Assembly (NCBI GenBank): GCA_937883755.1
Contig: CAKZYA010000006.1
Location: 62,001 to 126,000 of the forward strand
Length of the DNA: 64,000 nucleotides
DNA from: an uncultured Flammeovirgaceae bacterium
GTDB taxonomy: Bacteria > Bacteroidota > Bacteroidia > Cytophagales > Cyclobacteriaceae
Direction of reading: 5' to 3'
Made by a program: the position numbers and the translations under genes. The notes beneath the pieces were generated by a model. The model was not told where the DNA came from, did no database searches, and saw nothing but the letters and a program-made list of their open reading frames with translations. Positions 39,169-43,652 of this stretch are shown here, one piece after another. How positions within the stretch are numbered: position 1 is the first letter of the stretch; every line of letters begins with the position of its first letter.

Positions 39169-39927
39169 TTACAAGTCAGAATCTACTACCAAATGCGGAA
39201 TCGTAGCTAAATCCCAATCAATCACTAATCCCTGGGCTAGACTTTCAGCGATTTCTTTTCCGTACAAATACTCACAGAGGTACAAGGCAGCTTCAAAGGA
39301 TTTGGCTCCGCCCGCCGAGGTGATGAACTTGCCATCGTGCACGAATAACACATCTTTATGTACTTCCAGTTGAGGAAACATCTGGCGGTAAGTATTAATA
39401 TCACTCGGAAAGGTGGTAGAAGCATACCCATCTAAAATACCTGCTTTGGCCAGTACAAATGCGCCATCGCAGTGGGAAGTGACAAACTGAGCATTCTCAG
39501 CGGTTTTATGCACGAACTCTAGCATTATTTCGTCTTCCAAATCAGTATCCAGATGATGCTCGGCACTGGGCACGACCAGAATATCAATGGGTGGAACATC
39601 ATCTTTAAGGTAGTTGTAATCTGGTAAAATCCGCATTCCCTCAAAAGTAGTAATTACCTCGGTGGTATTGGCTACCGTAAATACCCGCATGGGTTTGATC
39701 CCCTCGCGGAAAATGGTATGCTGAAAAATATCGTAAGGTGCGGTGAGTTCAGTATTATACACTCCGTCCATAATCAGCAAGGCCACATTATAAGCTTCCT
39801 GTAAAGTGTCTTTCGAAACAGGATTATTTTCAGCAGTAGCGGGCTGAGTTGGATCGCAACCTGAATTACCCAAGCTAAACAGTAAGAAGACAATCAGCGG
39901 AGAAAGTAATCGTAGCATATTTTTCAA
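39169..39927 (-). CDS. DJ-1/PfpI-family lipoprotein
   Basis: 252 residues. A lipoprotein signal (FLLFSLGNSGC) places it in the periplasm or outer membrane. The rest is a DJ-1/PfpI (class I glutamine amidotransferase-like) domain: VALLIMDGVYNTELTAPYDI at the start, and QFVTSHCDGAFVLAKAGILDG with the nucleophile cysteine at the elbow, then FITSAGGAKSFEAALYL. Relatives act as glyoxalases, chaperones or the sensory half of transcription factors; here no DNA-binding domain is attached. Surface location is unusual for the fold. Confidence 0.85.
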   Translation of the reverse strand: MKNMLRLLSPLIVFLLFSLGNSGCDPTQPATAENNPVSKDTLQEAYNVALLIMDGVYNTELTAPYDIFQHTIFREGIKPMRVFTVANTTEVITTFEGMRILPDYNYLKDDVPPIDILVVPSAEHHLDTDLEDEIMLEFVHKTAENAQFVTSHCDGAFVLAKAGILDGYASTTFPSDINTYRQMFPQLEVHKDVLFVHDGKFITSAGGAKSFEAALYLCEYLYGKEIAESLAQGLVIDWDLATIPHLVVDSDL

Positions 39928-40279: not shown

Positions 40280-41737
40280 TTATTTTCCTTGAATCTCATT
40301 GATTGTTTGCACGATCTGAGACGCCAATTGCCGTTGGTTTTTTTCAGACGCTAAAAATGCTGACTCCTGCGGGTTGGACAGAAAACCTAAATTAAGCAGT
40401 ACCGACGGACAGGGGGCTGTTTTGAGTACCAGAAAGTCAGCTTGTTTTACCGCACTTTTCCCAGCTTCGGTGAGCGTAATGTTTTGGATAAACTGCTGGC
40501 TATATTTTTCTGATAGGTCACTCTGAGCATTTTGGGTTGAATAATATGCTTCTAATCCTTGTTGTGCTTCATCATCGTGCTGATTAATGTGCAGCGAGAG
40601 AAACAAATCAGCATTACTCTGATTAGCTACTTCCACCCGGTCGGAGAGAGAAATAGCATCATCGCCTTCGCGGGTGTAGATTAACCGAATGGAAGAAGTT
40701 GAGGTCAATTCATCCATTGCTTTAGCAATCGCTAATACTATGTCTTTTTCTTCCAGTTGCCCATTGGTAGTTCCAGCATCTGACCCGCCGTGCCCGGCAT
40801 CAATTACTACGGTAAATACCGAGTCGTTTGGGTAATAGGTCAACTGGTTTGACTGACTCGTGAAGGCAGTCATTACGAATAAGCCCACTGCCGCTAGTGC
40901 GGTAAATCCTAGCTTACTGGCGAAAGCCAAGGGAGAAGAAATAGTGCGTTGCATCATAAGAATTCGGTGTTTGGTTAAAGAATAATGAAAGCCACTACCC
41001 AGATGGGGGTAAGTGCGGTGGTGCATAAAATCTAATAATGTATGACTGTAAGCCGAAGCTTTGGATATCTGGCTGACTACGTAGTTATCGGCACAAAACT
41101 CATGGTTAGCCACTAGTGCCCGTCGGTACGCCCAAAGCAACGGATGAAACCAACCGAGAATCAAGATTAGCTCAATGAATAAAATATCCAGCGTATGTCC
41201 GTGACGAACGTGAAGAGACTCGTGCCGAATAATATCTTGAGGAATGTTACTCTGTAAATATTCTTCTTGATTGACAACGACGTAGCGACCGAAACTAAAC
41301 GGAGCTACGGGTTCTTTCACCAAGCGGAGCAATATTTTACCGTTGGTATGATGCTCCGCATTTGCCAGTAGGCAGTACATTGCCCAAAGATGTTTCGCAA
41401 AGCGAAAAGTCATTCCTAACACACCGATTCCGTAAACTAAGTACAACAGATAAACTAATCTGAACTCAGATGGCTGATTGACTGAAGGTGCGCCAATTGC
41501 TCCGGCAGTTTCCGGCAGCTCCAAATCTCCAGTGCTGAACAGAAGATGGCTATCGTCAAAATAGGTGGCTTGAAATAAATCTGGCAGTGTAGCCAACGGA
41601 ATAAGCAGTGAGAAAACAATTGACCCTAGCAAATAGAACCGATTAAACAAAAACCATTTATCCTTCCGAAAGAAGAGGTAATAGCAGCCAAGTAGCAGTG
41701 CCAGGCTGATGGTAGATTTGATTAAGTAAAAAATCAT
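40280..41737 (-). CDS. BlaR1-type M56 protease fused to an amidase-like sensor domain
   Basis: 485 residues. N-terminal membrane helices (about 1-120) carry an M56 metalloprotease with RHESLHVRHGH (zinc His172 and His176, catalytic Glu173) and the third ligand in NHEFCADNYV (Glu213). A last helix (AALAAVGLFVMTAF region, about 275-293) leads to a periplasmic Amidase_3 domain from about 305: VIDAGHGGSDAG (His316), LEEKDIVLAIA (Glu330) and LFLSLHINQ (His383) keep the zinc ligands of muramoyl-alanine amidases. The catalytic Glu, normally in VLVExGF, is Asn449 in SVLLNLGFLSN. This is the architecture of a BlaR1 antirepressor in which the usual sensor is replaced by a probably inactive amidase. Translationally coupled to blaI-like (ATGA overlap). 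Confidence 0.88.
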   Translation of the reverse strand: MIFYLIKSTISLALLLGCYYLFFRKDKWFLFNRFYLLGSIVFSLLIPLATLPDLFQATYFDDSHLLFSTGDLELPETAGAIGAPSVNQPSEFRLVYLLYLVYGIGVLGMTFRFAKHLWAMYCLLANAEHHTNGKILLRLVKEPVAPFSFGRYVVVNQEEYLQSNIPQDIIRHESLHVRHGHTLDILFIELILILGWFHPLLWAYRRALVANHEFCADNYVVSQISKASAYSHTLLDFMHHRTYPHLGSGFHYSLTKHRILMMQRTISSPLAFASKLGFTALAAVGLFVMTAFTSQSNQLTYYPNDSVFTVVIDAGHGGSDAGTTNGQLEEKDIVLAIAKAMDELTSTSSIRLIYTREGDDAISLSDRVEVANQSNADLFLSLHINQHDDEAQQGLEAYYSTQNAQSDLSEKYSQQFIQNITLTEAGKSAVKQADFLVLKTAPCPSVLLNLGFLSNPQESAFLASEKNQRQLASQIVQTINEIQGK

Positions 41738-42111
41738 TGCTTCTTCTTTTCCTCAATTTGTTCCTGAATAATGCTCCGTAGTTCTTCTAATTCCTTAAGT
41801 GACAGGTCAGCCTTTGCAGTGAAAAAGGAAGCAAACTGAGCCGGAGAATTATTGAAGAAGTTCTGGACAATCTGGTTGAAGTGGTTCTTCATATATTCTC
41901 CCTTCTTCAGTTTTGGAAAGTACTCTCGCACCTTGCCTCGCTGGATAAATCCTACCAGTTCCTTATTGATCATGCGAGTGAGTAAGGTGGCAATAGTGGT
42001 GTAAGCGGGTTTAGGTTCTGGAAAAGCATCTACCAGGTCTTTCATGTACGCCTTCTCCAACTTCCAGAGATAATTCATCAGTTGCTCTTCGGCTTTGGTT
42101 AGTTTTTTCAT
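41734..42111 (-). CDS. BlaI/MecI-family transcriptional repressor
   Basis: 125 residues. Winged helix of the BlaI/MecI/CopY family (LTKAEEQLMNYLWKLEKAYM, PAYTTIATLLTRMINKELV) followed by a dimerisation helix region (IVQNFFNNSPAQFASFF). In this family the repressor is cut by its M56 partner, classically between Asn and Phe; an NF pair is present at 84-85 (position suggestive, not proof). The gene overlaps the M56/amidase gene by 4 bp. It probably represses its own operon and unknown cell-wall genes. Confidence 0.9.
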   Translation of the reverse strand: MKKLTKAEEQLMNYLWKLEKAYMKDLVDAFPEPKPAYTTIATLLTRMINKELVGFIQRGKVREYFPKLKKGEYMKNHFNQIVQNFFNNSPAQFASFFTAKADLSLKELEELRSIIQEQIEEKKKQ

Positions 42112-42142: not shown

Positions 42143-43396
42143 TTACTGAAATGGTTGATAGGTAAATTTGCGCCAAAGCCTTTCTAAAGGACCTTGATCA
42201 AATTTTTGCATCCAAAACCAACTGATACTGAGTTGAAGCAGCCAAATGCCTATTACAATCAGCAGTAGTTCAGCGCGTGAATACTGATTGTACTTTCCCA
42301 ATCCGTAACCGTAGAAGATCAGCCCGCAAATAATACTTTGCAGTATATAGTTGCTAAGAGCCATTCTACCCACCAGCGAAATCGGGTTAGCTGTAAATCT
42401 CTTGAGGTATTTTTGATAGACCCCATTGAATAACAGAATGTAGGCCAGCCCTAATGTCTGTTTAGGAAAAGTAAATAACCAGCTCTGTCCTACACTTTTC
42501 ACAGGTTCGAAATACTCAAATGTCCAGTGATAGTACCGGAAATAATTCGTCGTTAGTGCAGCAACCAAAATAATCAGCGTAATGGGCCAGTAATACGTTA
42601 CCGAGCGATAATTGTGGAACACGCCTAATTTGTACAGTATTATTCCGAGAACCATCATCAAGAGTGTGCGGAACAGTATGCCTTGGTAAAAGACAGCACC
42701 TTTATGGACTTTTGTATGTTCGGCATTGGCTAGCCAGCCTTGATAAAGTGTAGTCCGCGGTACATCTATATTAGAGTGATCTGCCTCACCAGGCTGAGTT
42801 CTTTTCTTCCAGGTTTCTATCCTTTTTTGATCTTCTTCGGTTTGTTCTTCTAAAGTTAGCTTAACCGCCTGGGTATATTCACGGAATTGTTCTTTAGTCT
42901 TACTCGTACGTTCGTAGGAGTTATAAAGCAGTATTCCAGCAAATAGCAGTACAACAATTACTAGCTGATTTACCTTGAATGAACGGAGGGGAAACAGGAA
43001 AAAGCCGCAAGCAGCATAGTGATACAAAACGTCACCGTCCCAGATTAAGTAGGCATGGATAAGACCAAAGATGAATAACCAAAGTAACCGTCGGGCATAA
43101 ATATCCATCGCCTTCAGTCCCAAATTTTTACGTTCTAATCTTTCTAAGAAAATATAGAAGCCCACTCCGAACAGTAAGGTAAACATACTAAAGAACTTAC
43201 CTTGGGCTAGAAAGAATACCCAAAAACGGACGAGATGGTCAGCCTCACTAGCGAAACCATATTTGTATGGATTCCAAGGGTCGGGATAGGAAAAAGACTC
43301 AATGTTGATGATTAAGATGCCTAACAATGCAATCCCTCGTAAAAAGTCAAGTGAGTTAATTCTCTCAGATAGTGAAGTAGGCTCTAGCACTAGCAA
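42143..43396 (-). CDS. DUF418-family membrane protein
   Basis: 417 residues with ten or so membrane helices. NSLDFLRGIALLGILIINI and GKFFSMFTLLFGVGFYIF are the standard opening of the DUF418 (YeiB-like) family, and ANPISLVGRMALSNYILQSI the C-terminal signature. These proteins are thought to be transporters or acyltransferase-like; function not established. It ends 31 bp before the BlaI-type gene on the same strand, so it may be part of the same stress operon. Confidence 0.85.
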   Translation of the reverse strand: MLVLEPTSLSERINSLDFLRGIALLGILIINIESFSYPDPWNPYKYGFASEADHLVRFWVFFLAQGKFFSMFTLLFGVGFYIFLERLERKNLGLKAMDIYARRLLWLFIFGLIHAYLIWDGDVLYHYAACGFFLFPLRSFKVNQLVIVVLLFAGILLYNSYERTSKTKEQFREYTQAVKLTLEEQTEEDQKRIETWKKRTQPGEADHSNIDVPRTTLYQGWLANAEHTKVHKGAVFYQGILFRTLLMMVLGIILYKLGVFHNYRSVTYYWPITLIILVAALTTNYFRYYHWTFEYFEPVKSVGQSWLFTFPKQTLGLAYILLFNGVYQKYLKRFTANPISLVGRMALSNYILQSIICGLIFYGYGLGKYNQYSRAELLLIVIGIWLLQLSISWFWMQKFDQGPLERLWRKFTYQPFQ

Positions 43397-43409
43397 TGTT
43401 TACTATTAG

Positions 43410-43427
43410 TATAGTTTATATACTATA
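43410..43427. promoter_or_regulatory. Palindrome upstream of DUF418
   Basis: TATAGT-N6-ACTATA, 13 bp before the DUF418 start on the minus strand. BlaI-type repressors bind palindromes with TAC/GTA-like arms, so an operator is possible, but an A+T-rich palindrome could be chance. Confidence 0.35.
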
Positions 43428-43652
43428 AATGTAGTAATAAAAATTGCTAATCAAAATGATCACTACTACTCGGCCGTGATACTTAATAATTCGCTAACCT
43501 TACTCTAGTCTTCTTTTACTATTAACTCACGCTCTTCGGCTATTTCAAAGAGGTGGAAGAGGAGTAAATATCTTAGTGTCAGTGAGGTGACAAACAGTAA
43601 ATAGGTAAATCAACGTTGTAACATCAGTGTTTAAACTTTAATTTTAGTATAA

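Follow-up and report, generated by a model that had tools for sequence, protein, structure and literature searches.

A BlaR1-like receptor gene with an amidase-type sensor domain lacking its catalytic glutamate in an uncultured Cyclobacteriaceae bacterium

In BlaR1, the sensor of the receptor is related to a penicillin-recognising wall enzyme. The window analysed here (the whole stretch of 64,000 nucleotides) contains a gene in which a BlaR1-type membrane protease is joined to a domain from a different wall enzyme, an N-acetylmuramoyl-L-alanine amidase of the Amidase_3 family, with Asn in place of the catalytic Glu. What might such a protein sense, and what would it control? The reading that we favor, with a probability of about 60%, is that of a wall sensor resembling BlaR1, whose amidase domain would bind peptidoglycan stems without cutting them, trigger the cleavage of BlaI and open an operon composed of a DUF418 gene, blaI and blaR. 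With this receptor the cell would probably be able to monitor the condition of its wall and to respond by turning on this small operon. The features of the locus are as follows:

40280-41737, minus strand: gene of the M56-Amidase_3 fusion receptor (485 aa); predicted layout, a membrane M56 protease with a periplasmic loop at residues ~51-95, a last membrane helix at ~269-294 and the amidase sensor at 307-481
40295-40819, minus strand: Amidase_3 sensor domain (residues 307-481), with zinc ligands His316, Glu330 and His383, and Asn449 for the catalytic Glu
40391-40393, minus strand: codon AAT of Asn449, at the catalytic-Glu position of the alignment
41546-41557, minus strand: codons of D61-D62-S63-H64 (DxSH motif) in the predicted periplasmic loop, conserved in the clade of the window protein only
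41734-42111, minus strand: gene of a BlaI/MecI-type repressor (125 aa), overlapping the receptor gene by 4 bp
42143-43396, minus strand: gene of a DUF418 membrane protein (TmAT acyltransferase superfamily), first of the putative operon
43402-43415, minus strand: second dyad, ACTATACTAATAGT, read by eye, its centre 20 bp from that of the first
43421-43436, minus strand: predicted operator of the BlaI/MecI type, TACTACATTTATAGTA, which differs from TACTACANNTGTAGTA at one position and covers the putative -7 element
43426-43433, minus strand: putative -7 element TACATTTA, inside the operator dyad
43452-43455, minus strand: putative -33 box TTTG, 18 bp from the -7 element

The receptor gene is not a chance open reading frame, since two congeners carry it at 78-87% identity with the Asn conserved. 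Pfam placed Peptidase_M56 at residues 94-251 (E 8.9e-12, above the cut-off) and Amidase_3 at residues 310-480 (E 3.8e-43), with the last helix at ~269-294 between them, in agreement with the first-pass annotation, which had described a last membrane helix followed by an Amidase_3 domain. The M56 motifs that it had read, HESLH at 172-176 and Glu213, are at those positions and were the same in 17 of 17 aligned fusions, where H172, E173, H176, E213 and D217, the residues of HExxH and ExxxD, were invariant; these are the M56 motifs of BlaR1 (PMC9834060). The order of parts is likewise that of BlaR1, with the helix at 269-294 preceding the amidase, which would place the sensor outside the membrane.

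The three zinc ligands assigned to the amidase domain in that annotation, His316, Glu330 and His383, were all found in place and were invariant in the 17 aligned fusions. Its assignment of Asn449 to the catalytic position also held, this residue aligning without gaps with the Glu of VLxExGF in the amidases of PDB entries 4rn7, 5emi, 3ne8 and 1jwq. Structure modelling, which it had proposed, returned an Amidase_3 fold: in an AlphaFold model of the full receptor the amidase domain reached a pLDDT of ~97, and its Foldseek matches were Amidase_3 structures, among them CwlV, AmiC2 and CwlD. The membrane part scored poorly and is unreliable, because the M56-only alignment was too poorly conserved to gather viral-contig relatives as input. 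Within the sensor region Amidase_3 was the only domain found, and a penicillin-binding class D beta-lactamase-like domain was not found there. Thus, the domain shares its fold, its His-Glu-His zinc ligands and its cleft with Amidase_3 N-acetylmuramoyl-L-alanine amidases such as CwlD, CwlV and AmiC2, but differs from them in the Asn at the catalytic position and in its fusion to a membrane protease. It is of the compact CwlV type (~175 aa) and lacks the insertion seen between the two matched stretches of AmiA and AmiB from E. coli; an insertion of that kind is present in the host's own amidase L121.

To place the missing Glu in context, the fusions were searched for and the catalytic column aligned, as the first-pass annotation had suggested. 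In approximately 1,800 genomes of Bacteroidota, sampled by family, order, class and phylum with some genomes entering more than once, there were at least 23 full-length M56-Amidase_3 fusions, the window included, these counts being lower bounds because the large searches scored the best few candidates per genome. The largest family sample contained the fusion in at least 14 of 397 genomes at E <= 1e-85. A scan of genome contigs with the single protein as query gave one congener only, and the fourth congener of the set, G156, was without the fusion. No description of M56-Amidase_3 fusions was found in the open-licence papers searched.

The 23 fusions carry Glu (15), Asn (5), Ile (2) or Asp (1) in the catalytic column. 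Asn is present in the window protein, its two congeners, L011 and L013; Asp in L014; and Ile in L019 and L313, the latter found and added after the alignment of 22 fusions with 95 distinct viral-contig Amidase_3 domains. In that alignment the His, Glu and His zinc ligands were conserved in 117 of 117 domains, and Glu occupied the catalytic column in all 95 viral-contig amidases, as it did in both of two other host amidases. Glu-less proteins were therefore 8 of 23 among the fusions versus 0 of 97 among other amidases (Fisher p = 6e-7, the sequences being related), and because of this relatedness the number of events matters more than the p value. In the tree, the five Asn proteins and the Glu-bearing L012 form one clade (support, 100/99), in which L012 is sister to L011 (99/96), so that either one gain of Asn and one reversal or repeated gains would have taken place. 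The Asp and Ile proteins form a separate clade (99/95). The tree thus points to the loss of Glu at least two times, in at least two lineages, with Glu as the commoner and probably ancestral state of the fusions. Since most fusions keep Glu, and L012 keeps it inside the Asn clade, the loss appears derived rather than system-defining, and non-cutting would not be a requirement of the system. One finding named beforehand as adverse to the non-cutting reading had two halves, homologues with Glu and Asn as a single-strain change. The single-strain half was rejected, Asn being fixed in three species of the window genus and occurring in two other genera, whereas the other half was partly borne out by the 15 Glu-bearing fusions.

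The repressor gene, whose 4-bp overlap with the receptor gene had been noted at the outset, encodes a Penicillinase_R protein (E 2.4e-26) that matches MecI (1okr) and BlaI (1sd4). A blaI gene precedes the fusion gene in 17 of the 17 loci first examined whose contig reaches that far, and likewise in the later loci L141 to L144 and L319.

BlaI, MecI and CopY operators are of the TACANNTGTA type (PMC7253601), and the -7 element of Bacteroidota is TANNTTTG (PMC6847099). Relatives carry a dyad TACTACATTTGTAGTA no more than ~50 bp from the start of blaI, with 0 or 1 mismatches in six loci (L106, L107, L109, L113, L114 and L116) and 2 or 3 in another three (L108, L110 and L111). The window genus has no TACTACATTTGTAGTA-type dyad before blaI; a dyad is located instead upstream of the DUF418 gene. 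This TACA/TGTA dyad at the putative promoter, the predicted operator at 43421-43436, is conserved in the congeners, where it is exact in both, and in the relatives. In the congeners it contains the -7 element TANNTTTG exactly, and in the window as TACATTTA, with TTTG 18 bp upstream of the element in all three. It is one of only two sites with no more than one mismatch in the 7.6-Mb genome; the other, C63:106344, was rejected as a target, being inside a long coding frame. Sites with two mismatches showed no excess over a control pattern across the whole genome (48 versus 57), so only close sites are meaningful. The operator match supports a predicted BlaI-controlled DUF418-blaI-blaR operon. The receptor and BlaI of the first-pass annotation stood, and what it had missed was the operator and the DUF418 gene that would head the operon.

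These features place the system close to BlaR1/MecR1 of Staphylococcus and Bacillus licheniformis, which share with it a membrane M56 gluzincin with HExxH and ExxxD, an outer loop between helices 2 and 3, a C-terminal sensor related to a wall enzyme and, by the predicted topology, lying outside, an adjacent BlaI/MecI repressor gene and an operator of similar type, predicted here, over the promoter. In contrast to the class D beta-lactamase-like sensor of BlaR1/MecR1, the sensor here is an Amidase_3 domain with a zinc site; the operon of the window contains neither a beta-lactamase nor a PBP gene, and its host is a Gram-negative member of the Bacteroidota.

From BlaR1 and CwlD we infer, by analogy, the topology, the lost hydrolysis, the ligand and the signalling, which would operate as follows. 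BlaI bound to the dyad over the promoter would keep the DUF418-blaI-blaR operon off. Lying in the periplasm, the amidase domain at the C-terminus would use its cleft and intact zinc site to bind muropeptides or muramoyl-peptide stems, and would no longer cut them because the water-activating Glu is replaced by Asn449. Binding of the ligand would displace the periplasmic loop, possibly the His or Asp of the DxSH motif, from the sensor, and the last helix would relay the change to the M56 protease in the cytoplasm. Once activated, the protease would cleave BlaI and so turn on DUF418, blaI and blaR. BlaR1 cleaves BlaI directly. Its outer loop (residues 56 to 96) is reported to fill the sensor site until a ligand displaces it (PMC9834060). 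The loop at residues ~51-95 of the window protein is equivalent to that loop, and its DxSH motif is conserved in the six-member clade of the window protein and not elsewhere in the fusion alignment. The BlaI cut site keeps the Phe at P1' (F97, aligned to Phe102 of S. aureus BlaI) but has Phe instead of Asn at P1, a change that would count against cleavage of BlaI. A peptidoglycan dipeptide can also bind to BlaI/MecI itself (PMC3305447), which is a possible second wall input.

Glu199 of C. difficile CwlD corresponds to Asn449 and holds the zinc-bound water in position. Spores with E199A fail to germinate, yet the mutant protein remains stable and able to bind its partner GerS (PMC8496864); by analogy, this supports binding without cutting by the Asn449 domain, and it argues against a domain that remains a working amidase, with Asn449 and another residue as base, and that senses by cutting or substrate turnover. 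Such an enzyme would agree with the 15 of 23 fusions that keep Glu and look catalytic. The candidate base is His387, next to the zinc ligand His383, which is conserved in the Asn clade and could act as an alternative base, a point against the non-cutting reading. His387 did not come with Asn, however, since the Glu-keeping L012 also has it, and the substitute Glu elsewhere in the domain that the first-pass annotation had named as a possible refutation found no counterpart, the Amidase_3 alignment containing no acidic residue specific to the Asn clade. We regard a working amidase as distinctly unlikely. The survival of GerS binding in E199A would also suit a pseudo-amidase that senses a protein partner, for instance a LytM-type amidase activator, rather than peptidoglycan, and EnvC-type activators control division amidases (PMC10268282). 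The compact domain of the window, without an insertion like those of AmiA, AmiB and the host's own L121, speaks against such a partner, and we consider this reading improbable.

Selection bears on the two remaining alternatives. Between the congeners, dN/dS was 0.057 to 0.086 in the amidase domain versus 0.098 to 0.114 in the M56 part. The loop and linker mostly gave higher values, but estimates from such small segments are noisy. The amidase domain is thus under strong purifying selection, and from its residues it looks non-catalytic. A relaxed or drifting remnant without function would fit the loss of the catalytic residue in more than one lineage, but such decay was rejected on these values, lower than those of M56, and on zinc ligands that were never lost, so that we consider it very improbable. 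The replacement of Glu by Asn, Asp or Ile would be expected if binding alone mattered, as it would in a domain that only tethers the receptor to the wall as an anchor or tension gauge, the signal being mechanical or passing via the membrane helices and ligand chemistry being irrelevant. A plain anchor would not need a zinc site, though, and the zinc ligands are present in every member, in what is the most constrained part of the protein; a mere tether is therefore unlikely as well.

Beyond the non-cutting wall sensor that we favor for this locus, a tentative and rather doubtful extension would be a class of wall-integrity receptors in Bacteroidota, formed by fusion of an amidase to a BlaR1 protease. 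In the clade of the window, catalysis would have been removed to leave a pure binder, the His and Asp of DxSH would latch onto the zinc site until stems displaced the latch, and the output would include DUF418, which may modify the envelope. The favored wall sensor would itself be a case parallel to BlaR1, derived from another wall enzyme, in a phylum about whose wall sensing little is known. The locus also suggests a receptor chassis, M56-BlaI, on which sensors can be swapped, and the naturally occurring Glu, Asn, Asp and Ile forms offer a direct test of whether an enzyme must lose catalysis to become a sensor.

Several M56 paralogues of the host (L002, L003, L004 and L007, several adjoining BlaI-type genes) end, as read by eye, in TonB_C, plug-like or POTRA-like tails, which suggests a common chassis on which sensors are exchangeable. 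They resemble the window protein in the N-terminal M56, the BlaI-type gene and the swapped C-terminal periplasmic part, but the tail of the window protein is a peptidoglycan-enzyme domain. In another family, the fusions L070, L071 and L072 run past the amidase into plug-like or TonB_C-like tails; thus, amidase and TonB-type parts occur in one receptor.

As regards the surrounding genes, the DUF418/YeiB family of the first gene belongs to the TmAT acyltransferase superfamily (PMC12423673). In the Ile genus (L114 and L319), too, DUF418 lies next to the fusion, following it, and DUF418 neighbours were seen only at Glu-less fusions. Unlike a constant partner, it does not always accompany the receptor, and its role as a fixed partner was rejected, nearer DUF418 orthologues being located elsewhere, away from BlaI and M56. 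Just beyond the Glu-bearing fusion L115, a membrane protein with a weak match to GWT1 (TmAT-type; L115:7172-8296) may be a parallel case to DUF418. All three congeneric loci encode, downstream of the fusion, a DJ-1/PfpI-family protein with a lipoprotein-like start (39169-39927 in the window), whose gene may belong to the operon. In the congener G071, a pair formed by an Eco47II-like restriction endonuclease and a C5 methylase (L104:6235-8256), absent from the corresponding place in the window, lies between the fusion and the DJ-1/PfpI gene.
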